From NCBI GenBank assembly GCA_024686085.1, contig JAIBDT010000023.1, positions 1 to 37,020 of the forward strand: DNA of 37,020 bases. The letters run 5' to 3'. The notes under the pieces were generated by a model. The model saw nothing but the letters and a program-made list of their open reading frames with translations. It made no database searches and had not been told where the DNA came from. This DNA is from Loktanella sp. Its GTDB lineage: Bacteria; Pseudomonadota; Alphaproteobacteria; Rhodobacterales; Rhodobacteraceae. Both the position numbers and the translations under genes were made by a program. Positions 114-17,255 of this stretch are shown piece by piece; positions within the stretch are counted from its first letter, which is position 1, and each line of letters starts with the position of its first letter.

Positions 114-249
114 TGTGGATAAGTTTTTTGGGAATTTCTGGAAATTTCCAGAATGTTCAATTTTTATACAACATGTTGTGATCAATTGAGTAGTTGGCAC
201 AGTATGATCCCTATTGCCGCTGTGGATAACACAAGATGTTGGTGGATAA
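114..249. promoter_or_regulatory. Cluster of DnaA-box-like sites
   Basis: TGTGGATAA occurs at 114-122 and again at 221-229; both are exact reverse complements of the consensus DnaA box TTATCCACA. GGTGGATAA at 241-249 differs by one base. All three point the same way. DnaA is the replication initiator and also a transcription regulator; in Caulobacter it is known to activate ftsZ. A role in tying dcw transcription to replication is inference. The base matches are seen directly. Confidence 0.5.
136..153. repeat. Perfect 18-base palindrome TTCTGGAAATTTCCAGAA
   Basis: The 18 bases are identical to their reverse complement. The half-site TTCTGG also appears at 3-8 (as ATTTCTGGAA, shared over ten bases with 134-143) and at 42-47. 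Such symmetry fits a dimeric DNA-binding protein. A second perfect palindrome, ACAACATGTTGT, lies at 168-179. No regulator can be named from the sequence. Confidence 0.5.
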
Positions 250-294
250 GTCGGTGTAAAACACCATGTAGTACCATGAAATCCCAAAAAGATG

Positions 295-323
295 TTGATC
301 GGACCGCGAACTGGTGTCACTAA
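295..323 (+). promoter_or_regulatory. Possible sigma-70-type promoter of the dcw leader RNA
   Basis: TTGATC (295-300) and CACTAA (318-323) are separated by 17 bases. The -35 is a fair match and the -10 a weak one, as is common in Rhodobacteraceae. A start near 330 would give a leader RNA of about 210 bases ending at the terminator at 498-540. This is a placement by eye; other start points are possible. Confidence 0.3.
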
Positions 324-329
324 GGATGC

Positions 330-540
330 ACGGTAACGACGAGAACATGACAACAAGGGGCGACAAAGAACCCCACGGCAATAAGCAGGTTTCATACAGG
401 CCTTGTCATTACCGAACGAAGAGATCCGGCGCGCGAGCGAGCAGACATCCCCCCAGGTGGCGCGCGCAGCTGGACATACCCGGAAACGGGACGATGGCGG
501 CGGATTGAGTAGTGGCAGCTAACTCAATCCGCCGTTTTCA
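330..540 (+). ncRNA. upsM: UpsM-like leader sRNA upstream of mraZ
   Basis: In Rhodobacter sphaeroides the dcw cluster is preceded by a long 5' leader that yields the abundant small RNA UpsM by partial termination ahead of mraZ. The same layout is seen here: no protein gene, a long structured leader, then a strong intrinsic terminator just before mraZ. Visible pairings are CGGTA (331-335) with TACCG (410-414), ATGACAA (347-353) with TTGTCAT (403-409), GGGG (357-360) with CCCC (371-374), and CCCG-GAAA-CGGG (479-490), a GNRA tetraloop hairpin. The 5' end is inferred from a possible promoter. It is not RNase P RNA, whose conserved GAGGAAAGTCC core is absent. Identity rests on position and architecture, not on an alignment. 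Confidence 0.65.
498..540 (+). terminator. Intrinsic terminator of the mraZ leader RNA
   Basis: CGGCGGATTGAGT (498-510) pairs perfectly with ACTCAATCCGCCG (522-534), giving a 13-base-pair stem with an 11-base loop, followed by TTTTCAGTT. It lies only tens of bases before mraZ, so transcripts must read through to express the dcw genes. This is the expected 3' end of a UpsM-type sRNA. Confidence 0.8.
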
Positions 541-591: not shown

Positions 592-1089
592 GTGGTTCTG
601 AGTTTTACAGGCGAACACACCCAAAAGGTGGACGGTAAGGGGCGCATGTCGATCCCTGCCGATTTTCGTCGCGTACTCGAATCTCAAGATCCCGAATGGA
701 CCGAAGGCCTGAACCCCCGCATGTATTTGCTGTACGGCGACCATCTCAAGAATGAGTTGCACGTCTATACGGTTGAGGAATTTGGCACATTGGTCGCGTC
801 GATCAATGCGATGCCAAAGGGCTCGCCTGCAAAGAAGAAATTGTCGCACCTCTATATCGGTCAATCCATGAAGATGGAGATCGACAAGGATGGACGCACG
901 GTGATGCCAATCCGCCAGCGCGAAAAGCTGGGCCTGAAAGATGGTGAGCTTTATTTCCGCGGCGTGGGTGATCACTTTGAAATCTGGAAGGCCGAGACCT
1001 TTACCGAGACAGTCGCCGAGGATATGTCCTCGTGGCTGGATGAGCAGGGCGATGACTTTGATCCGCTCTCACTTTTGGATGCAGGGTAG
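592..1089 (+). CDS. mraZ: Division/cell wall cluster transcriptional repressor MraZ
   Basis: MraZ is a nucleoid-associated, AbrB-fold DNA-binding protein that usually represses its own dcw operon. The protein has the two SpoVT/AbrB half-repeats with the hallmark DxxGR motifs at about D14-R18 (KVDGKGRMSIP) and D98-R102 (IDKDGRTVMP). From the GTG at 592 it is 165 residues, normal for the family, and begins close to the conserved F-x-G-E region. An SD-like AGAAGGG lies at 574-580. An in-frame ATG at 547 would add 15 residues but has no visible ribosome binding site and sits right behind the terminator, so GTG 592 is preferred. It is separated from rsmH by 9 bases. Family identity is sure; the start is moderately sure. 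Confidence 0.93.
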   Translation: MVLSFTGEHTQKVDGKGRMSIPADFRRVLESQDPEWTEGLNPRMYLLYGDHLKNELHVYTVEEFGTLVASINAMPKGSPAKKKLSHLYIGQSMKMEIDKDGRTVMPIRQREKLGLKDGELYFRGVGDHFEIWKAETFTETVAEDMSSWLDEQGDDFDPLSLLDAG

Positions 1090-1098
1090 GAAAATTTG

Positions 1099-2076
1099 AT
1101 GTCAGCTGCCACTGAAACATCCCCACACATTCCAGTTCTGATCCGCCCGCTGATTGCGGCGGTATCCCCTGTTAAGGGCGTTTGGCTTGATGGCACGTTT
1201 GGCAATGGCGGCTATACCCGTGAGTTGCTGGCCGCAGGTGCTGATAAGGTGATCGGCGTTGATCGTGATCCTTTAGCCTTTGAAATGGCGGCGGATTGGA
1301 TTGCAAGTTTTGGCGACCGCATTGAAACCGTGCAAGGCGAATTTTCCAAGTTAGATCAATACGCAAGCAACCTTGATGGTGTTGTGCTGGACTTGGGTGT
1401 CTCGTCGATGCAGTTGGATATAGCCGAGCGTGGTTTTTCGTTCATGCGCGATGGACCGCTGGATATGCGCATGTCGCAAGAGGGCAAGTCTGCCGCTGAT
1501 ATTTGCAATGAGGCGGATGAGGCCGAGATTGCATCGATCATCTATCTTTATGGTGAAGAACGCGCATCGCGCCGCATTGCGAAGGCAATTGTCGCCAATC
1601 GTCCACTGACGACGACGCTGCAGCTTGCCAGTATTGTGTCGGGCTGTTTGCCGCGTGCCAAACCGAACCAAAGCCACCCAGCAACCCGCACGTTCCAAGC
1701 GTTACGTATTGCCGTGAACAATGAGTATGGCGAATTGGCCGAAGGTCTGATGGCCGCAGAGCGCGCGCTTAAACCGGGCGGTCAGTTGGCAGTTGTGACG
1801 TTCCATTCGGTCGAGGACCGTATGGTCAAGCGGTTCTTGCAGGCCAGGTCAGGCAGCTTGTCGAATGCTAATCGTTACGCGCCTGAAGTCGTGCAAGATG
1901 TTGCGGCTTTCCGCGTGGAAAAGCGCAAAGCCATCGGCCCAGATGATCACGAATTAAACGAAAACCCACGTTCGCGGTCCGCAAAGCTGCGTGTGGCGAT
2001 CCGTACGGATGCCCCCGCCCAAGCGATCGATCCCGCGAAATTGGGCATGCCTATGATGAACAAGGGAGGCAGATAA
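1099..2076 (+). CDS. rsmH: 16S rRNA (cytosine(1402)-N(4))-methyltransferase RsmH
   Basis: RsmH (MraW) methylates N4 of C1402 in the decoding centre of 16S rRNA using S-adenosylmethionine. The SAM-binding motif I is seen near the N-terminus as [12 protein letters not shown], followed by the acidic residue region GVDRDP, and [10 protein letters not shown] further on. [12 protein letters not shown] and the basic C-terminal [10 protein letters not shown] are also typical. The protein has 325 residues, near the usual 310-330. ATG 1099 is chosen because GGTAGGA at 1084-1090 is well spaced; the in-frame TTG one codon earlier is unlikely. The stop codon directly abuts the ftsL start. Confidence 0.97.
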
Positions 2077-2436
2077 ATGCGCAGCTTTCTTTTCGTACTC
2101 GCCGGACTTGCGGTGATGGGATTGGCCTTTTGGTCGTATCAAGAGAACTATAAAACCCGCGATGCATTGTCAGAAGTGCGGAACTTGCACGCTCAAATCG
2201 GCCGCAATCACGAGCGCTTGGGCATGTTGCGCGCTGAATGGGCCTATCTTAACCGCCCTGATCGTTTGTCAGATTTAGCCGAGTTGAACTTTGACCGCCT
2301 TGGCCTTTTGCCGATTATGCCTGACGCATTTGGCCGCGTTGATCAGATTATCTATCCGCTACCAGACGTGTTGCCGATTATCGTCCCGATTGAGGTCGAT
2401 AGTGCGCCCGTCAACCTAGATGAGGACGCGCTATGA
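2077..2436 (+). CDS. ftsL: Cell division protein FtsL
   Basis: FtsL is a small bitopic protein of the FtsQLB complex that activates septal FtsWI. The sequence fits: an N-terminal membrane segment at about residues 3-20 (FLFVLAGLAVMGLAFW), then a charged, helix-forming stretch at about 25-60 containing LRAEWAYLNRPDRL, which is the conserved FtsL-type segment, and a variable C-terminus. It has 119 residues. It starts directly after rsmH, with GGGAGG at 2064-2069 as SD, and its stop overlaps the ftsI start (ATGA). FtsL diverges fast, so the call leans on position plus topology and the short motif. Confidence 0.88.
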   Translation: MRSFLFVLAGLAVMGLAFWSYQENYKTRDALSEVRNLHAQIGRNHERLGMLRAEWAYLNRPDRLSDLAELNFDRLGLLPIMPDAFGRVDQIIYPLPDVLPIIVPIEVDSAPVNLDEDAL

Positions 2437-4217
2437 TCCGCACGCCGCTTCGCCCGCTCGCCCGTATCTTGAAAGCCCGCGAAAAGGGTGAAGATACCGA
2501 CGCCATTGAGGCCGAAAACCTGCGTTTGCGCCATGAAGCGGTGCGTGACCGGTCCCGCCTGCGTGCTGAGGGCCGTTTGTTGGTTTTGGGCGGCATGTTT
2601 GTTCTGGCCTTTGGCACCATCGGGATGCGCATGGGTGCGCTTGCTGGCACCGCCCCCGAGGAACCCCAATCCGCAGCTACCGGCAGTCCGATCATTGGGC
2701 AACGTGCTGATATTACAGACCGCAATGGCCGTATTTTGGCGACGAACCTTGAGACACATTCCCTATACGCCCATCCGCGCGATATGGTTGATCCAGCCCG
2801 CGCGGCGCGCGAATTGGCAGTAATCTTTCCTGAGTTAGAGGAAGAAGACCTTGTGAAAGATTTCACGGGTTCGCGTAAATTTGTCTGGGTGCGCAGGCAG
2901 TTAAGCCCTGAGCAGATGCAGGCTGTGCATGACATTGGCAGTCCCGGTCTGCTGTTTGGTCCCCGCGAGATGCGTCTTTACCCCAATGGCGCGATTGCTG
3001 CGCACATCCTTGGTGGTGCCTCTTATGGCCGCGAAGGTGTGGCCAGCGCCGAAGTCATCGGTGTCGCGGGTGTTGAGCGCAAATTTGACGAATACCTGCG
3101 TGATCCAAGTCAAGAAAACAAGCCGCTTGAATTGTCCATTGACCTGACGATCCAAGCCGCCACCGAAGAAGTGCTTTCAGGCGGCATGTCGATCATGAAT
3201 GCCAAGGGCGCGGCCTCTGTTTTGATGGACTTGCATACCGGCGAGATCATTGCCATGGCGTCCTTGCCGGACTTTGACCCCAACAATCGTCCGCAGGTTT
3301 TGCTGACAGGTGATCAGTCTGACAGTCCGCTGTTTAACCGCGCAGTGCAGGGTGTTTACGAGCTAGGTTCGACATTCAAGATTTTCGCTGTCGCACAAGC
3401 GATGGAATTGGGGCTGATTAATCAAGACACGATGATTGATACCCAAGGCCCATTGAAATGGGGTCGCTTTAAAATCCGCGACTTCCACGATTATGGCGCA
3501 CAGTTGTCTGCGACAGATGTCATCGTGAAATCGTCCAACGTGGGGACGGCGCGGATTGCCATGCAAATTGGTGGCGAGCGTCAGCAGAGCTTCTTGCGCT
3601 CGTTGGGCTTTATGGAAGCCACCCCTGTTGAGTTACAAGAGGCCCCGTCGGGCGCGCCGCTTTTGCCGCGCCAATGGTCCGAGATTTCGACCATGACCAT
3701 TTCCTACGGCCACGGTCTGTCGTCTTCGCCGCTGCATTTGGCAACTGGATATGCATCTTTGTTGAACGGCGGAACACGCGTCACTCCAACATTGCTGAAG
3801 CGCGATACTGCGCAATATGGCCCGCGCGTCGTCAGTGAAAGTATCAGCACCCGCGCCCGCGACATGCTGCGGGCCGTGGTTGTGCGCGGTACCGCGTCTT
3901 TTGGTGAGGTCGCAGGTTATGAGGTCGGTGGCAAAACCGGCACAGCCGACAAGCCCGAAGAAAACGGCGGCGGCTATTACGATGACAAGGTTATCGCGAC
4001 GTTTGCCTCGGTGTTTCCTGCGAATGATCCGAAATATGTGTTGATTGTGACGCTCGACGAGCCATCCGAAAACTCGGGCGACAAGCCACGCCGTACTGCC
4101 GGTTGGACCGCCGTGCCTGTTGCCGCCGAGATGATCCGCCGCGTTGCACCTTTACTTGGATTGCGACCACAAGTGGACACTTCAGAGCCGATCGGTGTAA
4201 CACTCACCTCAAACTAG
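2433..4217 (+). CDS. ftsI: Septal peptidoglycan transpeptidase FtsI (PBP3)
   Basis: FtsI is the monofunctional class B penicillin-binding protein that crosslinks septal peptidoglycan. A single membrane anchor lies at about residues 48-70 after a charged cytoplasmic tail. The PBP dimerisation domain follows (GQRADITDRNGRILA). The transpeptidase domain has all three active-site motifs: S313-T-F-K316, S367-S-N369 and K501-T-G503. The length of 594 residues is normal. The ATG overlaps the ftsL stop by four bases, suggesting translational coupling. Its partner glycosyltransferase FtsW is encoded further downstream. Confidence 0.97.
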   Translation: MIRTPLRPLARILKAREKGEDTDAIEAENLRLRHEAVRDRSRLRAEGRLLVLGGMFVLAFGTIGMRMGALAGTAPEEPQSAATGSPIIGQRADITDRNGRILATNLETHSLYAHPRDMVDPARAARELAVIFPELEEEDLVKDFTGSRKFVWVRRQLSPEQMQAVHDIGSPGLLFGPREMRLYPNGAIAAHILGGASYGREGVASAEVIGVAGVERKFDEYLRDPSQENKPLELSIDLTIQAATEEVLSGGMSIMNAKGAASVLMDLHTGEIIAMASLPDFDPNNRPQVLLTGDQSDSPLFNRAVQGVYELGSTFKIFAVAQAMELGLINQDTMIDTQGPLKWGRFKIRDFHDYGAQLSATDVIVKSSNVGTARIAMQIGGERQQSFLRSLGFMEATPVELQEAPSGAPLLPRQWSEISTMTISYGHGLSSSPLHLATGYASLLNGGTRVTPTLLKRDTAQYGPRVVSESISTRARDMLRAVVVRGTASFGEVAGYEVGGKTGTADKPEENGGGYYDDKVIATFASVFPANDPKYVLIVTLDEPSENSGDKPRRTAGWTAVPVAAEMIRRVAPLLGLRPQVDTSEPIGVTLTSN

Positions 4218-4231
4218 ATTTGGTGGGTAAC

Positions 4232-5731
4232 ATGGCCGAACATACAAAAACATTGACCGAGTTGGGGCTGACTGCTGCCGCAGGGCGCGATGCCCATGTG
4301 ACGGGTTTGACCGTCGATAGCAGGGCTGTCAAAAAGGGCATGCTTTTCGCCGCATTGCCGGGTACGCATGTGCATGGCGCGAGCTTCATTGAAACCGCAC
4401 TGAATGCAGGCGCGAGCGCGATTTTGACGGACGCCAAAGGCGCTGAATTGGCTTCCGTTGATTTGCTGGGCAGTGACGCTGCTTTGATCGTGGCCCAAGA
4501 CCCGCGCCAAACCCTTGCCCAAACCGCCAGTCTCTGGTTTGGCGCACATCCGCGCACTGTTGTTGCTGTGACGGGCACGAACGGGAAAACATCCGTGAGT
4601 ACTTTTGCGCGCCAGATTTGGGAAGAGATGCAGATTGCAGGCGTGAACCTTGGCACGACGGGGGTCGAGGGCGCGTGGACCCATCCGCTAAAACACACCA
4701 CCCCAGAGCCAATTACCTTGCACCGCGTGATGTCGCAGGCCACAGCCGCGGGCATTACCCATGTTGCGATGGAGGCGTCGTCTCATGGGTTGGATCAACG
4801 TCGCCTTGATGGTGTGTTGCTGACCGCGGCTGCGTTTACGAACTTTACCCAAGACCATCTGGACTATCACGAGACATTCGAGGCTTATTTCGACGCGAAG
4901 ATGGGTCTTTTCACCCGCGTTCTGGCTGATGATGGCGTGGCGGTGATAAACCTTGATGATCCCAAAGGGCCGCAAGTCGCTGATATTTGTGTAGCGCGGG
5001 GCCAAGAGGTTATCGGCGTCGGCCGCCATCCTGATGCGCGATTGCGCCTGACGGGTCAGCGCTATGATGCAACGGGCCAAGACCTGTTGTTTGCGTGGCA
5101 AGGCAAGCCGCACCAAATTCGTCTGAACCTGATCGGCGGATTTCAGGCCGATAATGTGCTGCTGGCCGCAGGATTGGTGATTGCGGCGGGTGCCGACCCT
5201 GATGAAGTGTTCGAGACCCTAGCGCACCTTTCAACTGTGCGCGGCCGTATGGAGCTGGCCGCAACCCGTGAAAATGGTGCTGCCGTTTTTGTCGATTACG
5301 CACATACTCCCGACGCGGTGGCAACGGCGCTGAAGGCGATGCGCCCACATGTTATGGGCCGTATCGTTGCGATTGTTGGGGCTGGCGGTGATCGTGACGT
5401 GGGAAAGCGTCCCTTGATGGGCGCTGCGGCGGCAGAGTTTGCCGATGTGGTGATCGTGACCGATGACAACCCGCGCTCGGAAGATCCTGCGTCCATTCGA
5501 GCCGCTGTGATGGCGGGTGCCTTGAACGGTGTCGGAACGCCAAGCGTGACCGAAGTTGGCGACCGTGCCGAGGCGATTTTGCGCGGTATCGATGCGCTTG
5601 GGGCAGGGGATGCGTTGTTGATTGCTGGTAAAGGGCATGAAAGCGGGCAAACCGTCGGCGATGTCACGCTACCTTTTGACGATGTGGAACAAGCCAGCGT
5701 AGCTGTCGCAGCTTTGGAGGGCCGGATATGA
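4232..5731 (+). CDS. murE: UDP-MurNAc-L-Ala-D-Glu:meso-diaminopimelate ligase MurE
   Basis: MurE adds the third stem-peptide residue in the cytoplasm using ATP. The ATP loop GTNGKTS is at residues 115-121 with K119 as the phosphate-binding lysine. DNPR at 412-415 (within DDNPRSEDP) is the signature for meso-diaminopimelate rather than lysine, as expected for a Gram-negative. The protein has 499 residues. The ATG at 4232 (MAEHTKTLTELGL) is chosen because upstream in-frame codons lie inside ftsI and encode nothing MurE-like. The stop overlaps the murF ATG (ATGA). Confidence 0.97.
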   Translation: MAEHTKTLTELGLTAAAGRDAHVTGLTVDSRAVKKGMLFAALPGTHVHGASFIETALNAGASAILTDAKGAELASVDLLGSDAALIVAQDPRQTLAQTASLWFGAHPRTVVAVTGTNGKTSVSTFARQIWEEMQIAGVNLGTTGVEGAWTHPLKHTTPEPITLHRVMSQATAAGITHVAMEASSHGLDQRRLDGVLLTAAAFTNFTQDHLDYHETFEAYFDAKMGLFTRVLADDGVAVINLDDPKGPQVADICVARGQEVIGVGRHPDARLRLTGQRYDATGQDLLFAWQGKPHQIRLNLIGGFQADNVLLAAGLVIAAGADPDEVFETLAHLSTVRGRMELAATRENGAAVFVDYAHTPDAVATALKAMRPHVMGRIVAIVGAGGDRDVGKRPLMGAAAAEFADVVIVTDDNPRSEDPASIRAAVMAGALNGVGTPSVTEVGDRAEAILRGIDALGAGDALLIAGKGHESGQTVGDVTLPFDDVEQASVAVAALEGRI

Positions 5732-7152
5732 GCGCACTTTGGACATCCACAGAGGCCGTTGCTGCGACGGGTGGTCAATCCAGTACTGACTGGATCGCAA
5801 ACGGCGTCTCAATAGATACCCGCACCATTCAAGCGGGCGACTTGTTTGTGGCGCTCAAAGATGTGCGTGACGGACATGACTTTGTTGCGATGGCGTTGGA
5901 AAAGGGCGCTGCAGCGGCATTGGTCACACACCGACCTGAAGGCGTGGCTGAGGACGCGCCGTTGTTGATTGTGCCTGACGTTTTGGCTGCACTTGACGCC
6001 ATGGGTGTCGCATCGCGTAACCGCACGAAGGCGAAAGTTGTCGGTGTGACTGGGTCGGTTGGTAAAACATCGACCAAGGAAATGTTGCGTGTTGTCTTAG
6101 GCTTGCAAGGTAAAGCGCATGTCGCGGAGGCATCCTACAATAACCATTGGGGCGTGCCTTTGACGTTAGCACGGATGCCCGCAGACGCAGATTTCGCCGT
6201 GATCGAGATCGGCATGAACCACGCTGGCGAAATTGCGCCGCTCGCAAAAATGGCGGCTCCGCATGTCGTGATGATTACGACGGTCGCGGCCGCGCATCTG
6301 GAAGCCTTCGAGAATGTCGAAGGCATTGCCGTCGAGAAAGCGTCCATCATGGAAGGCTTGGTTTCCGGCGGCATAGCGGTTTTGAATGCTGACATTTCAA
6401 CGGCGGGCCTTTTGGTTGATGCGGCAGAAAAATTAAGCGTTCCGTACCTGAGCTTCGGCGTAAATGGCGCAGACTGGCGGGCGGTCGATGTGCGGCTCAA
6501 TGATGATGTCACGGTCGTTTCTGCGCAAAATGCTGACGTCGACTACCTTTTCAAACTTGCTGTCCCTGGGCGTCACTTTGCAATGAATGCGGTCGGCGTT
6601 CTGGCGGTTGTTGCGGCGTTGGGTGCTGATCCGATGCGCGCTGCAATTGATATCTTCGGCTGGGTGCCGCCCGGTGGACGCGGGACGCGTGAAGTTGTCC
6701 AGCTTGATCCTGCGAGCCAAGACGATACGCTTGATCTGATTGATGATGCCTTTAACGCAAACCCGACATCAATGATTGCAAGTTTGGAAATCCTTGCAAG
6801 TGCGACCCCGCGTGACAATGTCGGCCGCATTGTGAAAGGTCGCCGCATTGCGTTTCTGGGGGATATGCTGGAATTGGGTCCGTCAGAGCGCGAAATGCAC
6901 CGCGCCATCGGTCATGATAAACATTTGCAATCGCTTGATGTTGTGCATTGCGTTGGTCCCCGTATGAAGCATTTGTATGATGCCTTGCCTGAGGCGATGC
7001 GCGGCATTTGGACTGAGGATGCCGCATCCATGTCGACGCAAGTCGGCCAGTTCGTCGATGCGGGCGATGTTGTGCTCGTGAAGGGGTCGAAGGGCAGTAA
7101 AGTTAGCTCTGTCGTTGACGCTATCCGTAAATTGGGGCATCGCAGGGCCTAA
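5728..7152 (+). CDS. murF: UDP-MurNAc-tripeptide D-alanyl-D-alanine ligase MurF
   Basis: MurF joins D-Ala-D-Ala, made by Ddl (encoded downstream), to the UDP-MurNAc-tripeptide. The Mur ligase fold is clear: an N-terminal substrate domain with [16 protein letters not shown], the ATP loop GSVGKTS at residues 109-115 (K113), an [10 protein letters not shown] motif typical of MurF, and a C-terminal domain with [11 protein letters not shown] and FLGDMLELG. It is 474 residues long, normal for the family. It overlaps murE by four bases and is followed after 29 bases by mraY, so it belongs to the same transcription unit. Confidence 0.97.
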
Positions 7153-7181
7153 GGCTTTGGACGCGTAAAAAGGTTATAAAC

Positions 7182-8264
7182 ATGCTCTATTGGTTAACCG
7201 CACTGTCAGATGGCGGCGATTTCTTTAACCTCTTTCGCTATATCACGTTCCGTGCAGGCGGTGCGTTCATTACGGCTTTGGTCTTCGGCTTTATCTTTGG
7301 ACTACCCTTGATCAATGTGCTGCGCCGCAAGCAGGGCAAAGGGCAACCCATCCGAGACGATGGCCCCGAAGGTCATTTTGCCAAGGCTGGCACACCCACG
7401 ATGGGCGGGTTGTTGATTGTTGGTGCGCTGACATTCTCGACACTTCTTTGGGCACGTTTGGACAATCCTTTTGTTTGGCTCGTGCTTTTTGTGACTTTGT
7501 CTTTCGCGGCCATTGGGTTTGCAGATGACTACGCCAAAGTGTCCAAGCAAAATACAGCAGGTGTATCTGGTAAGATACGGTTATTACTTGGCCTTTTGAT
7601 CGCAGCGATTGCCGGTTATTGGGCGGCGCAATACCACCCTGCGGACCTAACCAATCAACTAGCATTGCCAATTTTCAAGAATACGCTGATTAATCTCGGC
7701 CTGTTTTTCGTGCCTTTCTCGGTAATAGTTATTGTCGGATCGGCGAATGCTGTGAACCTGACAGATGGCTTGGACGGCTTGGCAATCATGCCTGTGATGA
7801 TCGCGGCTGGCACCTTTGGCATCATCTCTTATGCCGTTGGACGGACCGACTTTACCGAGTATCTCGACCTGCACTATGTGACCGATACCGGTGAAATCCT
7901 TATTTTCTGCATGGCGCTGATTGGCGGCGGCTTGGGCTTTTTGTGGTACAATGCGCCCCCTGCGGCCGTGTTCATGGGCGACACTGGGTCCTTGGCTTTG
8001 GGGGGCGCGCTTGGGGCGATTGCCGTTGCCACGAAACACGAAATCGTTCTGTCGATTGTCGGCGGTCTTTTTGTTGTCGAGGCCATGTCCGTCATCATTC
8101 AGGTCCTCTACTTTAAACGCACAGGCAAGCGGGTCTTTTTGATGGCCCCGATTCACCATCACTATGAGAAAAAGGGTTGGGCCGAGCCACAGATCGTGAT
8201 CCGCTTCTGGATCATATCACTGATCCTCGCGATGATCGGCCTTGCGACTTTGAAAGTTCGGTAA
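7182..8264 (+). CDS. mraY: Phospho-N-acetylmuramoyl-pentapeptide transferase MraY
   Basis: MraY is the integral membrane enzyme that transfers phospho-MurNAc-pentapeptide to undecaprenyl phosphate, forming lipid I. It is 360 residues with about ten hydrophobic segments. Signature motifs are present: [25 protein letters not shown] with the catalytic aspartate pair, [25 protein letters not shown], and the histidine-rich loop [19 protein letters not shown] at 7167-7173 is a good SD for ATG 7182. The last base of the stop codon is the first base of the next gene's ATG (TAATG). Confidence 0.98.
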
Positions 8265-8671
8265 TGACCACAATTATCGGCGACACCGCTGGCATGATTG
8301 CGGGTATGTCGCCCGAGTTGATGGCAGGGGCGTTTGACTTTTGCACGCTGAACGCAGACGACCCACGACTGGTCAAACTCATCCCCCTTGCACGAGCGGT
8401 GTTTCAAGAAGCTGAAGGCACTTCGCTTATTCTTCCGGTTAACGTTATGAAAGCAGAAGGTTTTGCTGAAACCGCGCCGATGGCGCAGATCACATTGAAT
8501 GTGTTCTCTTCACTCGAGGGCGTCGGGTTGACCGCCGCCGTGGCCCAAGCGCTTGCCGCCCAAAACATCGCCTGCAACATGGTGGCGGCGTTCCACCACG
8601 ACCACGCTTTTGTGCCGCTTGATCGGGCAGAGGATGCGATGGCGGTATTAAGAAAACTGGCAGCCGAATAG
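8264..8671 (+). CDS. ACT domain protein (ACT_3/DUF2241 type)
   Basis: A 135-residue soluble protein between mraY and murD. The segment from about residue 50 onward (EGTSLILPV, ITLNVFSSLEGVGLTAAVAQAL, HHDHAFVPLDRAEDAM) matches the conserved pattern of the ACT_3/DUF2241 family, whose members resemble amino-acid-sensing ACT domains. The function of the family is not established. The ATG shares a base with the mraY stop (TAATG), so translation is likely coupled. A 127-base gap separates it from murD. A regulatory role in precursor synthesis is a guess from position only. Confidence 0.8.
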   Translation: MTTIIGDTAGMIAGMSPELMAGAFDFCTLNADDPRLVKLIPLARAVFQEAEGTSLILPVNVMKAEGFAETAPMAQITLNVFSSLEGVGLTAAVAQALAAQNIACNMVAAFHHDHAFVPLDRAEDAMAVLRKLAAE

Positions 8672-8798
8672 CAGGTTGGGCTTTGATTCATTGAAGCACC
8701 TTGTCTTTCGCTGGATTGGGGGAATTCAATAGTCCTGTGCCCTTGTCTCTACCCGTCGCAAAAGGCACTCTGCGCAGGACTTAAAAAGGGTGCGTCAG

Positions 8799-10202
8799 AT
8801 GATTCCAGTGCAGGGTTACGATGGTAAAACAGTGGCCGTTTTGGGCCTTGGTCGTTCGGGGCGTGCTGCGGCTTTGGCTTTGTCTGAAGGTGGCGCAAGT
8901 CCTGTTGTTTGGGACGACGGCCAAGCTGCTCGTGACGCGGCAGAGGCGGATGGGTTTACCCTGCGCGATCTGACCCAGCCTGACGCTTTTGCCGGCGTAG
9001 ATCGTCTGATCGTTTCCCCTGGCATCCCGCACCTCTATCCTAATCCGAACCCTGTGATTGCGCTTGCTTGGGCCGCGGGTGTGCCGGTTGATAACGATAT
9101 CGGCTTGTTCTTTCAGTCCTATGCGACTGATGAATGGTCGGGCTTTAATACGATCCCTAAGGTCATCGCGGTCACTGGATCAAATGGGAAATCCACGACT
9201 TCGGCCTTGATCCACCACATCTGCGAGGCCAATGGGCGCGCGTCCCAACTTGCGGGCAACATCGGGCGCGGGGTCTTGGATATCGACCCTGCACATGACG
9301 GTGAAGTCGTGGTGCTAGAGCTTTCATCCTATCAGACAGACCTTGCCCGTAGTTTGACGCCTGACGTGGCTGTGCTGACCAATATCTCGCCTGATCATTT
9401 GGATCGTCATGCCGGTTTGGGCGGGTATTTTGCGGCCAAGCGCCGCCTGTTTGCCGAAGGTGGACCAGATCGCGCCGTGATCGGGGTTGATGAGATTGAG
9501 GGGCAGTTTTTGGCCAATCAATTGTCCGAAGGCGCTGCGGATGACCGCGTGATCCGCATTTCTTCGGGGCAGAAACTGGAAACAGTGGGCTGGACCGTTT
9601 TTGCGCGTAAGGGTTTCCTGAGCGAATACCGCAAGGGTCGCCAAGTCGCCTCGATTGATCTGCGCAGTATCCAAGGTTTGCCCGGTGCGCATAATCATCA
9701 GAACGCATGTGCCGCTTATGCAGCCTGTCGCACCTTGGGCTTTAGTCCCAAGGGGATCGAGGCCGCAATGCAATCGTTTGGTGGCCTGCCGCATCGGTCT
9801 CAGGTTGTGGGCGAAAAGGATGGGGTGCGCTTTGTGAATGACAGCAAGGCCACGAATGTAGATAGCGCGGCTAAAGCCCTGCAGGCGTTTGCTCGGGTCC
9901 GCTGGATTTGTGGTGGTTTGCAAAAAGAAGGCGGATTGACTGGGGTGCTGCCCCATGTCGGTCATGTCGCCAAGGCCTACGTGATTGGTCGCGAAGCCGA
10001 AGATTTTGCCCGCCAGTTGATTGGGGTTGAGGCGGTTGTTTGCACCACGATGGAGGCTGCTGTCGCTGCTGCCGCGAAAGACGCCCAAAGCGGTGAGGTC
10101 GTGCTGCTGGCCCCTGCCTGTGCAAGTTTTGATCAATACGATAACTTTGAGCAGCGCGGGGATGATTTCATGGCCCAAGTGCGCGCTGTTATTGGGGCAT
10201 AA
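8799..10202 (+). CDS. murD: UDP-MurNAc-L-alanine:D-glutamate ligase MurD
   Basis: MurD adds D-glutamate to UDP-MurNAc-L-Ala. The N-terminal Rossmann-like part contains [10 protein letters not shown]; the ATP loop GSNGKST is at residues 127-133 (K131); [10 protein letters not shown] and [10 protein letters not shown] follow; the C-terminal domain has FVNDSKATN, the classic MurD motif, and a [14 protein letters not shown] tail. It has 467 residues. ATG 8799 is preferred over the in-frame GTG at 8790, because the SD AAAAAGGG (8783-8790) is correctly spaced for the ATG and would overlap the GTG. It is the last gene of the first plus-strand block. Confidence 0.97.
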
Positions 10203-10414: not shown

Positions 10415-11590
10415 CTAGAAATGCGCTTTTATCGCTTGCCCTGCGGCCCATCCGGATGACCATGCCCATTGAAAGTTATATCCGCCCAACCAGCCTGTTA
10501 CATCGACGCATTCTCCGATGAAATAAAGGTTCGGCATCGTTTTCGCGGCCATCGTTTTGCTGTCGAGGTCTGCCGTGTCGACGCCACCAAGGGTCACTTC
10601 GGCGGTTCGGTATCCTTCGGACCCAGAGGGGGTCTGCACCCAGTTCTGCAACGCTTCACAAAGCGTTTGTAGTTTCGCGTCCGATTGGTCCGCGAGGTTT
10701 CCGCTCATGTCGATTTGATCGGCAAGGTAGGTCACCAGTTTTGACGGCAGGTGCTGCCCAATGACCGTGGTCAAGGCCTTGCGTCCGTCCGTTTGGCGCG
10801 CAGTCTTGAGATGGCCGAAAAGGTCAGTTTGCGGGATCAGGTTTGTCGTGATCGGATCCCCTTCTGCCCAATAGCTGGAGGCTTGCAAGATCGCGGGGCC
10901 GGATAGGCCGCGGTGCGTGAAAAGCATGGCTTCATCAAAACTTGTGCTATTTGCTGTGACCCGCGCGGGCAGGGCGGTGCCCGCTAGCGGTTTGAACCGT
11001 TCGTCGGTGAACGTGAGTGGCACAAGCGCGGGGCGTGTTTCGATTATCTCCAGCCCGAATTGTGTGGCAATTTGATAAGATAGGCCAGTTGCCCCCATTT
11101 TTGGAATTGATTTTCCGCCTGAGGCCATCACCAGATTTGTCGCTGTGATTTGACGAGTGGTGCCGTCACGGCTCAAGGGCACGTGGAAATGCGTGCCGTC
11201 ATGGCTTATGCCGCCAACATCGGTTTGCAGCCAAAGCTGCGCGCCTTTCATCTCGGTGCGCAGCATGGCGATGATGTCTTTTGCTGTGTCGTCGCAGAAC
11301 AGCTGTCCCAGCGTTTTTTCATGGTATGCAATACCGTAGGATGCGACGAGGCCAATGAAGTCCCATTGCGTATATCGCTTGAGCGCGGATTTCGCGAAAT
11401 GCGGGTTCTGGCTAATGAAATTTGCAGCCGTGGTGTGCATGTTCGTAAAATTACAGCGTCCGCCGCCAGAAATGCGGATTTTCTCCCCAGCCGCTTTGGC
11501 GTGATCGACGATAAGGACGTCCGCGCCCGCGTGGGCTGCGCACATCATGCCTGCGGCCCCTGCGCCGATGATAAGTGTTTTGACTTGCAT
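10415..11590 (-). CDS. BaiN/HI0933-type FAD-dependent oxidoreductase
   Basis: A 391-residue flavoprotein of the HI0933/YhiN (BaiN-like) family. The N-terminus has the dinucleotide-binding GxGxxG (G9-A-G11-A-A-G14), the family signature SGGGRCNFTN at 41-50, and the C-terminal FAD-contact block GECVDVTGWLGGYNFQWAWSSG-type motif. The physiological substrate of most members is unknown; the best-studied relative acts on bile acid intermediates, which does not predict the role here. It is encoded opposite to the dcw genes and splits the cluster between murD and ftsW. Its start (CAT at 11588-11590) faces ftsW across a 194-base region. Confidence 0.88.
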   Translation of the reverse strand: MQVKTLIIGAGAAGMMCAAHAGADVLIVDHAKAAGEKIRISGGGRCNFTNMHTTAANFISQNPHFAKSALKRYTQWDFIGLVASYGIAYHEKTLGQLFCDDTAKDIIAMLRTEMKGAQLWLQTDVGGISHDGTHFHVPLSRDGTTRQITATNLVMASGGKSIPKMGATGLSYQIATQFGLEIIETRPALVPLTFTDERFKPLAGTALPARVTANSTSFDEAMLFTHRGLSGPAILQASSYWAEGDPITTNLIPQTDLFGHLKTARQTDGRKALTTVIGQHLPSKLVTYLADQIDMSGNLADQSDAKLQTLCEALQNWVQTPSGSEGYRTAEVTLGGVDTADLDSKTMAAKTMPNLYFIGECVDVTGWLGGYNFQWAWSSGWAAGQAIKAHF

Positions 11591-11784
11591 GGTCCTGAGG
11601 TGCCGCGAAAACGCGGCGTGTGCAAGGGGGCAGGTTGTCTTGTCGTAACATCAGGTTTTCACAAACCAAAGAGGCGGACAGGCGCGCATACACAATTTGC
11701 AGTAGAAATAGGGTAACAAACCCGCTATTGCTGGTGTCAGACCCGAAAAATCGGGCGAATAGAGGCAGTATTGGCGGTGATCCC
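11591..11784. promoter_or_regulatory. Divergent intergenic region between FAD oxidoreductase and ftsW
   Basis: This 194-base gap must hold the promoter of the minus-strand gene and probably one for the ftsW block, since the cluster is interrupted here. Two small hairpins are visible: GCCGCG-AAAA-CGCGGC (11602-11617), in the leader of the minus-strand gene, and CCCGA-AAAA-TCGGG (11742-11755), 29 bases before the ftsW ATG. No -35/-10 pair is good enough to name. Confidence 0.4.
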
Positions 11785-12951
11785 ATGACGGAAATGGTCT
11801 ATGGTACGGTTCCAGTGTATTCTGGTGATCCAGTTCTTCCACGGTGGTGGCGAACGATTGATAAATGGACAATGTCCTGCATTCTTTTGCTTTTCGGGAT
11901 CGGTTTGCTGCTGGGCTTGGCATCGTCGCCGCCTTTGGCAAGCAAGAACGGGCTAGAGCCGTTCCACTATGTGTCCAGACAAGCGTTCTTTGGCGGTGTC
12001 GCGATGATGGTCATGTTGGCCATGTCGATGATGACTCCGCAAATGGTCCGCCGCGTGGCGGTCGTTGGCTTTTTAGTGTCCTTTATCGCATTGATGGGCT
12101 TACCACTTTTTGGCACTGACTTTGGAAAAGGCGCCGTGCGCTGGTATTCTTTAGGATTTGCGTCTTTTCAACCGTCAGAGTTTCTGAAGCCCGGGTTCGT
12201 TGTTATGGCTGCGTGGTTGATGGCTGCTGGCCTAGAGATTGGCGGCCCTCCGGGGCGTATGTATTCGTTTGTTTTGACCGTTTCGATTTGCCTGATGCTG
12301 GCTTTACAGCCGGATTTCGGCCAAGCCTGTCTTGTCTTGTTCTCGTGGGGCGTGATGTACTTTGTTGCGGGTGCACCGATGATGATCTTGCTTGTGCTTG
12401 CCGCGTTGGTCGTTCTTGCGGGATCATTTGCCTACGCGAACTCTGAGCACTTCGCCCGCCGAATTGACGGATTTTTGTCCCCCGATGTCGATCCAACAAC
12501 GCAGCTAGGTTATGCTACAAATGCAATCCGCGAGGGTGGTTTCTTTGGCGTGGGCGTCGGGGAAGGCCAAGTAAAGTGGTCGTTGCCAGACGCGCATACT
12601 GATTTCATCATCGCCGTGGCTGCCGAGGAATACGGTTTGATCTGCGTGATCGCGATTATCGCGCTGTATAGCATTGTCGTTGTTCGCTCGCTTATGCGTT
12701 TGATGAAAGAGCGCGATCCGTTTATCAGGCTTGCGGGCACTGGATTGGCTTGCGCTTTTGGTGTCCAGGCGATGATCAACATGGGTGTTGCGGTGCGGTT
12801 GCTGCCTGCAAAGGGCATGACGCTGCCTTTCGTATCTTATGGCGGATCGTCGTTGATTGCAGGTGGCATTGCGATGGGCATGCTTCTGGCCTTTACGCGC
12901 AGCCGCCCACAGGGCGAGATTGGTGATATTTTGATGCGGAGAACGCGGTGA
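11785..12951 (+). CDS. ftsW: Septal peptidoglycan glycosyltransferase FtsW
   Basis: FtsW is the SEDS-family polymerase that builds septal glycan from lipid II together with FtsI. From ATG 11785 the protein has 388 residues and starts [16 protein letters not shown], followed by [10 protein letters not shown]. About ten membrane segments are visible. Family motifs include [20 protein letters not shown] and, near the C-terminus, [13 protein letters not shown] longer reading to 11620 would add 55 polar residues with no family resemblance and is rejected. The stop overlaps the murG GTG (GTGA). Confidence 0.95.
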
Positions 12952-14030
12952 GCAAGTTACTGGTAATCGCAGCAGGCGGCACGGGCGGGCATATGTTCCC
13001 AGCCCAAGCGCTGGCCGAGGCGATGTTGGCGAAGGGATGGCGCGTAAAGCTATCCACCGATAATCGCGGAGCGCGCTATGCGGGCGGGTTCCCTGACGCG
13101 GTCGAAATCGTGCAGGTGAAATCTGCGACGTTTGCCCGTGGTGGGGTTCTGTCCAAGTTTGCTGTTCCATTCCGCATTCTTGCAGGGATCGGTGGTGCCA
13201 AGTGGCGCATGTTCCGTGATCGTCCTGATGCTGTTGTGGGCTTTGGTGGCTACCCAGCTATTCCAGCGATGACTGCTGCTTGGGTATTGCGGATCCCGCG
13301 CATGATCCACGAACAAAACGGTGTTTTGGGTCGCGTCAATAAAGTGTTTGCCAAGCGCGTCTCCAAAGTCGCCTGCGGGACGTGGCCGACCACTTTGCCT
13401 GATGGCGTTGATGGCGTCGACGTTGGGAACCCTGTTCGCGCCGCAGTACTGGAGCGCGCAGGCGCGGGCTATATCCCGCCCGGTGATTATCCGATGTCAA
13501 TTTTAGTCATGGGCGGTTCGCAAGGTGCCCGCATTTTGTCCGACATTGTCCCCCCTGCAATTGACGCTTTGCCTGAACATATCCGTCGCAATGTCCGTGT
13601 CGCGCATCAAGCCCGTGACGAGGATATGTTGCGCGTTGCAACCTTCTATGCCGACAATAGCATTGATGCCGATGTGCAACCGTTTTTCACAGACGTTCCG
13701 AACCGCATGTCGGAGGCTCAGTTGGTGATTACACGCTCGGGTGCGTCGACAATCGCAGATTTGACCGTCATTGGACGCCCTGCAATATTGGTGCCCTTTG
13801 CAGCCGCGACCGGCGATCACCAGACCGCCAATGCGCGTCAGATGGTCGATGCCGGTGCTGCGATTTTGATGCCTGAAAGCGAATTTGAAGTTTCGGCCCT
13901 GACTGCTCAGATCGAACTGGTCTTGAGCAATGAGAAGGGCGCGTTGCAAATGTCTCAAGCTGCCCAAGCCTGCGGCAAGCCTGATGCCACGACCCGTTTG
14001 GTCGCATTGGTCGAAGACCTGGCCCAATAA
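12948..14030 (+). CDS. murG: UDP-GlcNAc:lipid I N-acetylglucosaminyltransferase MurG
   Basis: MurG is the peripheral membrane GT-B glycosyltransferase that converts lipid I to lipid II. The N-terminal glycine-rich loop [12 protein letters not shown] and the central [23 protein letters not shown] and [12 protein letters not shown] motifs are typical, as is [12 protein letters not shown] followed by [14 protein letters not shown] in the UDP-GlcNAc-binding domain. It has 360 residues. The start is GTG at 12948, overlapping the ftsW TGA by four bases, which couples the two. murC follows after 23 bases. Confidence 0.97.
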
Positions 14031-14053
14031 CATTACAGTGAAAGAACGTCCCG

Positions 14054-15454
14054 ATGAACGCGAGTGCTACCAAACTACCCCTTGATGTTGGCCCGATCCA
14101 CTTTGTCGGCATTGGCGGCATTGGCATGTCAGGTATTGCCGAAGTCTTGTTGAACCACGGCTATACGGTACAGGGGTCTGACTTGAAGGCCACGCCGATC
14201 ACCGAGCGTTTAAAAACGCTGGGGGCCACTATTTTTGAAGGCCAGAAAGCTGAAAATCTGGAACTTGCCGAAGTTGTTGTGATCTCATCTGCGATCAAAT
14301 CGGGAAACCCTGAACTGGACGAAGCCCGCTTGCGCGGCTTGCCCGTCGTGCGCCGCGCGGAGATGCTGGCTGAACTGATGCGTCTGAAATCGAACGTGGC
14401 GGTCGCCGGCACCCACGGTAAGACAACCACGACCACAATGGTCTCTGCGTTGCTTGATGAGGGCGGCCTTGATCCAACGGTGATCAATGGCGGCATTATT
14501 CACGCTTACGGATCGAACGCCCGCATGGGGCAGGGCGAATGGATGGTGGTCGAAGCTGACGAAAGCGATGGCACATTCAACCGCTTGCCCGCGACAATCG
14601 CGATTGTGACCAACATTGACCCGGAGCATATGGAGCATTGGCACACTATCGAAAATCTACGTCAGGGGTTTTATGAATTTGTGTCGGGCATTCCGTTTTA
14701 CGGTCTTGCTGTGTGCTGCACGGATAACGCCGAAGTTCAGGCACTTGTCGGACGTCTGACGGACCGCCGTGTTGTGACTTACGGCTTTAACGCGCAGGCA
14801 GATGTCCGCGCGATTAACCTGACATATAAGGCTGGTGTTGCGCATTTTGATGTGGCTTTGCAGGCTGAAGGTCTTGTCATTGAGGGCTGTGAGTTGCCGA
14901 TGCCGGGCGATCACAATGTCTCAAACGCGTTATCGGCTGTGGCCGTTGCCCGTCATTTGGGCATGAAGAAAGACGAAATTCGTGCGGCCCTTAAGGCCTT
15001 TGGCGGCGTAAATCGTCGCTTTACGAAGGTTGGTGTCGTGAACGACGTCACGATCATTGATGATTACGGCCACCACCCTGTCGAAATTACTGCGGTCTTG
15101 AAGGCCGCACGTCAGGCAACGGAAGGCCGCGTCATCGCGGTGCATCAGCCGCACCGCTATAGTCGTTTGCACCACCATTTTGACGAATTCTGTGCCTGCT
15201 TTAACGATGCTGATGTTGTGGGCATTACCGATGTCTACGCCGCTGGTGAGCAGCCGATTGAAGGCGCATCACGCGATGATTTGGTCGCGGGTCTTATTCG
15301 CCACGGCCACCGTCATGCACGTGCTGTTGCCTCAGAGGATGATCTCGAACGCTTGGTGCGTGAACAGGCCAAGCCGGGAGACATGGTTGTTTGTTTGGGC
15401 GCGGGCACGATCAGCGCGTGGGCGAACGGGCTGCCGGCGCGTTTGGAAAAGTGA
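14054..15454 (+). CDS. murC: UDP-N-acetylmuramate:L-alanine ligase MurC
   Basis: MurC adds L-alanine, the first stem-peptide residue, to UDP-MurNAc. The N-terminal domain starts [18 protein letters not shown], the ATP loop GTHGKTT is at residues 119-125 (K123), [10 protein letters not shown] follows, and the C-terminal domain has [11 protein letters not shown] and the HQPHRYSR motif specific to MurC. The protein is 466 residues, normal for the family. The stop overlaps the GTG of the next small gene (GTGA). Confidence 0.98.
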
Positions 15455-15705
15455 GCTATTCTCTCATCATAGCCGCCCTTTGGGCCTTGCTTGCGACGTT
15501 CACTGCGTTCTTGCCGATGCGCCGCCAATATGTGCCAGGTGTCACGCTGCTGATCGCGGCACCCGTGCTGATTATCTGGGTCGGCTATGATTTTGGGTGG
15601 TTCTACGGCGTGTTAGCCTTTGCAGGCTTTGCATCAATGTTCCGCAACCCGTTGCGCTATATCTATGCGCGCTTGAAGGGCGAAAATCCGGAGATACCCC
15701 GCTGA
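15451..15705 (+). CDS. DUF2484-type small membrane protein, copy 1
   Basis: An 84-residue hydrophobic protein with about three membrane segments ([48 protein letters not shown]) and a basic C-terminal end. It resembles the DUF2484 family, which is found in Rhodobacteraceae next to murC/murB; function unknown. The GTG start overlaps the murC stop, and its own stop overlaps the next ATG (TGATG), so three genes are likely translated in a chain. It is clearly related to the following gene. Confidence 0.75.
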
Positions 15706-15953
15706 TGGCCCCGTCTTTGATCTTTGCCGCACTTTGGTTGTTGGCTGCCAACGTCATGGCAATGATCCCATCGCGTGATAATCACTGGCAGCGCGCCTAT
15801 TTGCTGATCGGTCTCGGTATCCCTTTGCTGGGCTGGCTGACCTATGAAAACGGGCCTTGGGTCGGTTTGATTGCGCTGGCAGCGGGCGGGTCTGTGTTGC
15901 GTTGGCCCGTGGTTTATCTCGTGCGCTGGCTACGCCGTATGATGTCGCGCTAA
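15705..15953 (+). CDS. DUF2484-type small membrane protein, copy 2
   Basis: An 82-residue paralogue of the preceding protein. Both start S-L-I-x-A-A-L-W-x-L-x-A, share a P-x-R turn after the first helix, a glycine/tryptophan-rich middle and a basic end with a Y-x-x-R pattern, so the pair looks like a tandem duplication. Three membrane helices are likely. The ATG overlaps the previous stop (TGATG) and the stop overlaps the next ATG (TAATG). Function unknown. Confidence 0.75.
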   Translation: MAPSLIFAALWLLAANVMAMIPSRDNHWQRAYLLIGLGIPLLGWLTYENGPWVGLIALAAGGSVLRWPVVYLVRWLRRMMSR

Positions 15954-16237
15954 TGGCGGACGTGGCGATCCTTGCGATTATGTTGGCTTTCGCATTGCTT
16001 GGCTTTTTCATGATGCACCGATTGGTTTTGGCGCAACGATCTGGCGCTGCGCTGACGTTTATCTCTGTGATATCTGCCGCACTCGCGTTTTTCGTCTTTG
16101 CAGGCACAACCCCTATCGGCATGGATCCGCTGCGTGCGATGGGGGCTGCTTTGGTTTGTTTGTTGCCCACACTTGTCGGTGCGGGGGCAGGTGCGTTATT
16201 GGGCTGGCTGATGTTGCGCCGCCGATTTAGGAAATAA
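15953..16237 (+). CDS. Small hypothetical membrane protein before murB
   Basis: A 94-residue protein with three strong hydrophobic segments ([58 protein letters not shown]) and a very basic tail LRRRFRK, which suggests an inside C-terminus. I do not recognise the family; it is not obviously a third copy of the two preceding proteins. It is linked to both neighbours by one-base overlaps (TAATG each side), so it is very likely a real gene in the murC-murB unit. Confidence 0.7.
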
Positions 16238-17178
16238 TGATGATTGAGACTATGCCAGACGTGCGCGGCACGTTGACCCCAAGTCGCCCCTTGGCTGATC
16301 TGACTTGGATGCGTGTCGGCGGCCCTGCGGATGTTCTATTTCAACCTGCTGATGTTGATGACCTTTCTCAGTTTTTAGCGACCTTAGATCCAAGCGTGCC
16401 TGTGTTCCCGATGGGTGTCGGCTCCAACCTGATTGTCCGTGATGGCGGCATTTCGGGCGTTGTGATCCGTCTTGGTCGTGGGTTTAACGGGATCGCTTTT
16501 GATGGAGATATCGTGACCGCAGGGGCTGCGGCATTGGATGCGCATGTCGCGCGCAAAGCTGCGATCGAAGGACTTGATTTAACCTTCCTGCGCACGATTC
16601 CGGGCACAATTGGTGGTGCTGTGCGGATGAACGCGGGCTGCTATGGCAGCTATACGGCCGATGTTTTGAAGTCGGTGACGGTTGTGATGCGCAACGGGAC
16701 GGTCGTAGACGTGCCCGCAGTTGACCTGCAGATGGCTTACCGGTCTTCTGTTCTTCCCGAAGGCGCGGTCATAGTTGGCGCGACCTTGCTGGCACCAAAG
16801 GCTGATCCTGTCGCCTTGGATGCGCGCATGGTTGATCAATTGGCCAAGCGTGACGAGACACAACCCACCAAGGACCGTACAGCAGGGTCAACGTTTCGAA
16901 ATCCCGCTGGTTTTTCCAGCACAGGACGTGCGGATGATGTGCATGATCTAAAAGCTTGGAAAGTCATTGATGACGCAGGAATGCGCGGCGCGACATTGGG
17001 CGGGGCCGTCATGAACGTCAAACATTCCAACTTTTTGACCAACGCGGGTGGTGCAACTGCCGCTGATCTTGAGGATTTGGGTGAGTTGGTTCGGAAAAAG
17101 GTTTACGATTCCAGTGAGATCACGTTAGAGTGGGAAATTATGAGGGTTGGAAACCGAACCGGTGAACGGCCCGCGTAA
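16237..17178 (+). CDS. murB: UDP-N-acetylenolpyruvoylglucosamine reductase MurB
   Basis: MurB reduces UDP-GlcNAc-enolpyruvate to UDP-MurNAc with FAD and NADPH. The FAD-binding PCMH-type domain shows [22 protein letters not shown] and [17 protein letters not shown]. The active-site serine lies in GSTFRNP, and [11 protein letters not shown] closes the C-terminal domain, whose glutamate is the conserved catalytic one. It has 313 residues. ATG 16237 shares a base with the previous stop; ATG codons at 16240 and 16252 are alternatives. It is followed by a 96-base gap rich in hairpins. Confidence 0.97.
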
Positions 17179-17191
17179 TTCGAAAAATTTA

Positions 17192-17255
17192 CCCCGCAAA
17201 AGGGGATGGCCCCAAAGGCAGGGGCCAACGGCGAAAGACGGATCGCAAAGATCCG
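17192..17255. repeat. Three consecutive hairpins between murB and ddl
   Basis: Three stem-loops stand back to back in 64 bases: CCCC-GCAAAA-GGGG (17192-17205), TGGCCCC-AAAGGCA-GGGGCCA (17207-17227) and CGGATC-GCAAA-GATCCG (17239-17255). None is followed by a T-run, so they are not standard terminators. They lie just upstream of the ddl ribosome binding site (GGTGGTAGGG). They could stabilise or process the mRNA. The pairings are seen directly; the function is unknown. Confidence 0.6.

Follow-up and report, generated by a model that had tools for sequence, protein, structure and literature searches.

A UpsM-type leader RNA with a predicted StsR partner before the dcw cluster of a Loktanella genome, and conserved NrdR-type boxes upstream of it

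The dcw locus and its leader

The window, by which we mean the whole stretch of 37,020 nucleotides analysed here, lies at the start of a contig, and its MraZ is nearest to those of Loktanella/Yoonia metagenome genomes (up to 98%). On the plus strand, mraZ (592-1089, Pfam MraZ) is the first dcw gene and is followed by rsmH, an ftsL-sized gene without a Pfam hit, ftsI, murE, murF, mraY and murD (1099-10202), the first one-strand run of the cluster. A minus-strand gene encoding an HI0933-like flavoprotein (10415-11590) then interrupts the cluster, which resumes on the plus strand (11620-25968) with ftsW, murG, murC, a DUF2484 gene, murB, ddl, ftsQ, ftsA, ftsZ, lpxC, a YfiO-type gene and an SMC-type gene in the recN position. 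An earlier note on this DNA had described a dcw operon of some 20 genes. This was overstated: because the HI0933-like gene lies on the opposite strand between murD and ftsW, a single 20-gene operon is unlikely from the layout alone, and the first run covers mraZ to murD (592-10202).

The region before mraZ carries a putative terminated leader RNA at 332-540 (plus strand), delimited by fold, alignment and covariance model, its start near 332 being placed by alignment with Rhodobacter sphaeroides; the predicted RNA, from about 332 to the T-run, is some 205 nt long. Its elements, all on the plus strand, are the R1 stem, with a 5' strand at 331-343 and a 3' strand at 402-414 (predicted fold, strand-swap test), the R2 hairpin with its near-invariant loop (425-474), a short predicted R3 hairpin (479-490) and the R4 terminator (498-538). 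The arms of R4, CGGCGGATTGAGT (498-510) and ACTCAATCCGCCG (522-534), form 13 bp around an 11-nt loop that holds the near-invariant GTGGCAG, and are followed by TTTT at 535-538. This T-run is short, as it is in 62 relatives examined. A simple terminator scan with a loop limit of 8 did not list R4, whose loop measures 11 nt.

The minimum-energy fold of 330-545 consists of R1, R2, R3 and the terminator, at -85.3 as against -62.9 ± 4.2 for 200 shuffles (z -5.4, none of the 200 as good). With this fold and a 13-bp stem ending in TTTT, the 13-base-pair terminator and the several internal helices that had first been noticed in the leader are borne out. The terminator had also been placed only tens of bases before mraZ, which stands with a more exact figure: judged by the starts of aligned relatives and by Pfam MraZ, mraZ most likely begins at GTG 592 and not at ATG 547, so that about 54 nt separate the T-run from the start codon.

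Homology of the leader to UpsM

Leaders of this kind before dcw have been described for Rhodobacteraceae and, according to that report, are confined to this family (Weber 2016, PMC5089854). The R. sphaeroides representative, UpsM (RSs0682), is given there as a 206-nt RNA from a 268-nt UTR, cut by RNase E from 206 to 130 nt (Weber 2016, PMC5089854). Its further traits, as described, are that the transcript is made, that read-through is about 1%, that mraZ has no other promoter and that the RNA binds Hfq. The R. sphaeroides genome in our sample was recognised by a PufL match of 100%, and in it the published 268-nt UTR and 206-nt RNA coincide with the aligned start and terminator.

A covariance model was built from 26 of 31 candidate leaders, all from other genera and R. 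sphaeroides included. It matches the window at 403-544 with 145.2 bits (E 6.5e-41), which is the kind of check that the earlier note had proposed for its comparison with UpsM. Given this score, the place before mraZ, the R1-R4 order and an StsR partner in the genome, the identity of the leader as an ortholog of R. sphaeroides UpsM is well supported, as is the likeness in layout proposed earlier. The two RNAs share a position before mraZ, a length of about 205 nt, the R1-R4 order, a terminator ahead of mraZ and the R2 and R4 sequences. They differ in that one base of the block at 385-401 is C in R. sphaeroides and T in the window (where all 17 of 17 StsR pairs form) and in that the predicted R1 stem has 12 pairs in the window and 11 in R. 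sphaeroides; moreover, the RNA of the window is a predicted one. Being homologous to UpsM, the leader itself belongs to a kind already known. An Rfam scan of positions 1-1500 returned nothing near cut-off (best mir-9447, 21.8 bits against 67), and in the one alphaproteobacterial locus from outside the family that was tried (L103) the UpsM model found no match.

Conservation and covariation across genera

Family samples comprised one genome per genus, 248 from the larger group, and shuffled controls were random sequences generated to first order from the dinucleotides of the region concerned. A strict UpsM motif is present in 94 of 108 one-per-genus mraZ loci. Thirteen of the 14 genera without it were run against the covariance model, the remaining locus (L214, 349 bases) being left out; 12 score at least 34 bits and one (L219) 19.6. 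A wider alignment excluded four loci with too little upstream DNA (L032, L077, L095, L101), seven from Lachnospiraceae and L103; once duplicates and near-duplicates had been removed as well, 60 of 62 kept leaders were aligned (L038 contains N; L025 was dropped). Three blocks are near-invariant in these 60 leaders: GCAGGTTTCATACAGGC, the hairpin R2 including its loop, and the terminator, whose loop contains GTGGCAG. The R2 loop CGAGCAGACATCCCCCCAGGTGGC is identical in 78 of 94 genera. In a Celeribacter-labelled relative (L092, 2266-2439), R2 is absent, with site 1 (the GCAGGTTTCATACAGGC block) and a terminator-like end kept.

Covarying helices among related leaders, on which the earlier note had made its proposal depend, are present. 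Pairing is kept in 99.0% of cells of the 26-leader alignment, and two-sided changes occur at 9 pairs against a shuffled mean of 3.9 (0 of 500 as high), counted on a structure taken from that same alignment. The covariation score is 0.225, compared with 0.136 for shuffled and 0.026-0.085 for slid alignments; the number of pair types is less clear (30 versus 27.5 shuffled, 40 of 500 as high). Compensatory changes fall mostly in the terminator (7 of 9, with 1 of 9 in R2), and in the 60-leader alignment they affect 14 of 32 consensus pairs.

R1 has been termed hardly conserved (Weber 2016, PMC5089854). Nevertheless, its pairing is kept while its letters change, as seen in a strand-swap test over 91 genera: own 5' and 3' strands pair at -17.1 kcal/mol, swapped strands at -13.9 (p 1e-12, relatedness between genera not removed). 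The effect is modest per genus: the median rank is 0.20, and a quarter (25%) of genera have the own partner within the top 5%. An upstream control stretch gave no own-strand advantage in this test.

A candidate StsR gene and its pairing sites

The near-invariant block GCAGGTTTCATACAGGC at 385-401 (plus strand) is probably a pairing site for the small RNA StsR, as it is a 17-nt perfect complement of an StsR-type sRNA gene in the same genome. Perfect copies of the 14-nt GCCTGTATGAAACC number two in this genome, namely the leader's own complement and one elsewhere, and the latter sits in a compact promoter-to-terminator unit with a strong terminator (L111, 1455-1535, minus strand), which we regard as the StsR candidate. 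From CACTG to the T-run the unit measures 77 nt, as does its counterpart in R. sphaeroides (L176); by length, promoter and complementarity L176 would be R. sphaeroides StsR (RSs0827). The 5' segment and the site-1 complement are letter-identical in the two units, while some bases differ in the linker and the terminator hairpin. In R. sphaeroides, StsR is described as a 72-nt RNA that promotes RNase E cleavage of UpsM (PMC8307010). The candidate lies upstream of a dehydrogenase-like gene, and its R. sphaeroides counterpart (L176) upstream of a similar reading frame.

An RpoHI/RpoHII-dependent promoter counts among the traits of StsR. The putative promoter pattern TTGG-N14-22-TATA was found at 28 of 30 loci with enough upstream DNA. 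Among the matches listed, 237 of 248 family genomes show the StsR pattern (208 of 215 when only good genomes are taken), with reversed-control matches in one genome only (G090); the listed match of one other genome (G127) is the leader's own complement. In a draw from the class, the pattern was present in 5 of 5 family genomes and in none of 380 others. Rfam gave a weak match only at the StsR locus (Hrs13, 24.7 bits against 52).

The match is near-invariant in both RNAs. With G-U counted, 77 of 94 genera retain at least 16 of the 17 pairs at site 1. Just before the site-1 complement, the StsR segment CTGCTCGATAGGTTTCTTGC is identical in 31 of 31 loci (CA precedes it in 27), and the 5' end of StsR is complementary to a proposed second site at 504-514 (plus strand), in the rising arm and loop of the terminator. 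At this site 2, 81 of 89 genera retain 10 or 11 of the 11 pairs when G-U is counted; its arm pairs 5.2 of 6 positions versus 2.7 shuffled, and among 1000 shuffles 1.4% (window) and 0.3% (R. sphaeroides) attain its duplex energy. The head of StsR against UpsM gives -46.5 in the window, beyond the range of 300 shuffles (minimum -39.7); the R. sphaeroides pair, at -40.3, lies within that range (mean -31.7, minimum -43.3).

Proposed mechanism and alternatives

On this basis the leader is very probably a 5'-UTR-derived sRNA, orthologous to UpsM, that is opened by StsR, cut by RNase E and gates the dcw cluster by read-through. StsR of R. sphaeroides reportedly acts on UpsM in this way, with dcw expression lowered. 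Transcription would start near 332 and mostly stop at the T-run (535-538), yielding the RNA of about 205 nt, with occasional read-through producing dcw mRNA. In the free RNA, the R1 stem would hide 402-414. Under stress or in stationary phase, StsR would pair over 17 nt with 385-401 and open R1, so that RNase E could reach 402-414 both in UpsM and in the leader of the dcw mRNA. The homology in sequence and structure, the StsR gene and the complementarity are seen directly in these genomes; for termination, read-through, Hfq binding, cleavage and stress control we extrapolate from R. sphaeroides. By our own placement, the cut that shortens the RNA from 206 to 130 nt would fall in the 3' strand of R1.

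The complementarity at site 2 suggests that StsR could also touch the terminator. It might then be a trans antiterminator, its 5' end CACUGCUCGAU pairing with 504-514 and its middle with 385-401 so that read-through into dcw rises. The identity of CTGCTCGATAGGTTTCTTGC and the site 2 statistics given above speak for such a role, and from their order sites 1 and 2 can pair simultaneously without a knot. Cofolding, however, leaves the terminator closed and site 2 unformed, for the window pair and the R. sphaeroides pair alike, and conservation of the terminator arm serves the terminator itself. What is reported for R. sphaeroides is RNase E cleavage and an effect on dcw (PMC8307010), and we consider antitermination unlikely.

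Less likely again is a riboswitch-like sensor, in which the R2 loop would bind a small molecule or protein and control the terminator. This possibility was raised by Weber 2016 (PMC5089854), and the near-invariance of CGAGCAGACATCCCCCCAGGTGGC is left unexplained by StsR pairing. Yet the same authors found no R2-R4 interaction to be conserved within the family (Weber 2016, PMC5089854), and positions 1-1500 hold no Rfam match above cut-off. As for an RNA partner, the sole perfect complement of the R2 loop in the genome is the leader itself and 19 others have 2-3 mismatches, for which reason none is proposed. Very improbable is a merely leaky attenuator whose short RNA lacks a trans role, with StsR conserved for other targets such as the rpoE mRNA described in R. 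sphaeroides (PMC8307010), since the match is near-invariant in both RNAs across the family and UpsM makes up about 60% of Hfq-bound sRNA in R. sphaeroides (Weber 2016, PMC5089854).

UpsM and its presence in the family were already described (Weber 2016). New here are an StsR-type partner in the same genome, a family-wide pairing site and a conserved promoter region (1-300). The UpsM-StsR gate of R. sphaeroides thus appears to extend to almost all sampled genera of a large family, and its near-invariant pairing site can be tested in many members.

GANTC sites, MraZ-type repeats and promoter

For the region upstream of UpsM, profiles from 94 genera were anchored on site 1. A candidate -35 element of the UpsM/dcw promoter, TTGATC at 295-300 (plus strand), is suggested by TGATTTCC- and GTTGATTT-type words that are enriched at this place in relatives. 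Farther upstream, GANTC occurs at 8, 27, 40 and 50 (cluster 8-54), which we take to be putative CcrM-type methylation sites. Across the 94 genera, GANTC density rises to 0.90 (bin at -400) and 1.01 (bin at -350) sites per 50 bp, compared with 0.01-0.06 between -900 and -550; at least two sites lie within -420 to -300 in 56 of 93 genera (14.8 shuffled) and at least one in 87 (44.8 shuffled). The cluster is a conserved feature some 540 bp ahead of mraZ in the family loci sampled.

The window also holds two MraZ-type half boxes, TGGGA-N5-TGG at 129-141 (plus strand) and a proximal CCA-N5-TCCCA at 274-286 (minus strand), named after the E. coli consensus. E. coli MraZ is reported to be autoregulated, with TGGGA repeats separated by 5-nt gaps before mraZ. 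Repeats, gaps and position are alike in the family, where, unlike in E. coli, several clusters spread over about 400 bp: TGGGA-N5-TGG concentrates near -430, -290 and -90 relative to site 1 in the 94 genera. The proximal half box is present in 70 of 93 genera (0.8 shuffled). The full TGGGA-N5-TGGGA repeat of the consensus precedes mraZ in 48 of 93 (0.2 shuffled), the window having half boxes only.

Two perfect DnaA-box-like sequences TTATCCACA, at 114-122 and 221-229 (both minus strand, sequence scan), are the only perfect DnaA boxes in the window, and both precede the UpsM promoter. A replication origin at this place was considered and dropped, because only 13 of 94 genera have a perfect DnaA box within the 450 bp that precede site 1 and a GANTC cluster alone is no test for an origin.

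NrdR-type boxes at dcw, ccrM, mipZ and nrdJ

Words such as ATATATAG and ATATTGTG, found near -225, turned out to be 16-bp palindromes, which we take to be of NrdR type by comparison with the NrdR consensus. In the window, such boxes lie at 166-181 (ATACAACATGTTGTGA, 15.7 bits with a matrix trained on other promoters), at 229-244 (ACACAAGATGTTGGTG, 11.5 bits, 63 bp from the first) and, weakly, at 259-274 (AAACACCATGTAGTAC, 6.9 bits, 30 bp from the second). With up to three mismatches the palindrome precedes UpsM in 41 of 94 genera, compared with 0.35 shuffled.

Training sites of UpsM and of the other promoters were kept apart, the NrdR consensus having been the starting point. Built from 11 ccrM, mipZ and nrdJ sites and nothing else, one matrix detects boxes upstream of UpsM in 62 of 94 genera (mean of the shuffles 1.9, maximum 4) and, at a lower cut, in 78 (2.6, maximum 7). 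At the higher cut, UpsM box-to-box distances between 12 and 75 bp were 29-32 bp twelve times, 63-65 bp thirteen times and other values twice. Conversely, a matrix from 35 UpsM boxes alone finds boxes at 29 of 30 ccrM and 17 of 28 mipZ loci (0.3 and 0.2 shuffled); in coding controls for ccrM it scores 2 of 30 with the cut at 9 and 6 of 30 with the cut at 7, and for mipZ 0 of 28. The 30 ccrM and 30 mipZ loci were chosen for their similarity to the query of one genome (G112) and do not form an even draw; two of the mipZ loci dropped out because their start or upstream sequence could not be used. Pfam served to check two ccrM, two mipZ and three nrdJ proteins, further ccrM and mipZ loci being taken by similarity to the G112 query.

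Among 27 distinct two-mismatch sites in six genomes, 15 lie before mraZ (4), ccrM (5), mipZ (3) or nrdJ (3) and 12 fall outside these assignments; in G112 all four such sites belong to the four genes. The Loktanella genome itself has the two-mismatch pattern no more often than a reversed control (4 and 4 versus 6 and 4). Its ccrM, nrdJ and nrdR carry boxes and its mipZ does not (best 0.5 bits), as is the case for 11 of 28 mipZ loci. At UpsM of R. sphaeroides, two boxes 31 bp apart score weakly, with 5.9 and 5.4 bits.

As conserved sequence the boxes are firmly established; their binder, their effect and the identities of the regulators are inferred. According to PMC12051234, NrdR represses RNR genes, binds box pairs with 14-17-bp spacers in vitro, represses best in vivo with 15-17 bp and does not bind a single box. 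What the boxes here share with NrdR regulons is the 16-bp palindrome, a box upstream of an RNR gene and a spacing of about three helix turns; they differ in also preceding ccrM, mipZ and dcw. UpsM box pairs at 29-32 bp, of which the window's spans 30 bp (14-bp spacer) and has a second box of only 6.9 bits, put this spacing at the edge of the NrdR range.

We see an even balance for and against a model in which NrdR of Rhodobacteraceae governs a cell-cycle regulon of nrdJ, ccrM, mipZ and dcw entry, its boxes lying about 60-165 bp before the UpsM start, and would report the dNTP/ATP state to division; MraZ repeats and GANTC sites would contribute feedback from division and a link to replication timing, ahead of the UpsM-StsR gate. 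Somewhat less probable, though a serious contender, is another S-phase regulator common to the four genes. As nrdJ is itself cell-cycle linked, the co-occurrence of boxes does not name the protein. At -29/-31, second boxes never exceed 3 bits before ccrM (0 of 29) or mipZ (0 of 16) and cannot be called, which sits ill with a protein said not to bind a single box (PMC12051234), and the 14-bp spacer of the window lies outside the in vivo optimum. Against such a regulator, the boxes fit the NrdR consensus, nrdJ is boxed in 3 of 6 genomes, the UpsM distances cluster at 29-32 and 63-65 bp, and nrdR is present in 6 of 6 genomes. In the Loktanella genome nrdR is itself preceded, at about 106 bp, by a box of 11.0 bits (L262, 2041-2056), pointing to possible autoregulation; no upstream box above 7 bits was found at nrdR in the five other genomes.

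The boxes tie dcw to nrdJ, ccrM and mipZ, and under the NrdR model they offer a testable route by which division and DNA methylation could be tied to DNA-precursor supply. In the literature searched, no link between GANTC and mraZ, NrdR and mraZ, or NrdR and CcrM was apparent, PMC8959179 included. Of separate note, the window also carries the cobalt chelatase genes cobT and cobS (31251-34235, minus strand), and nrdJ is B12-dependent.
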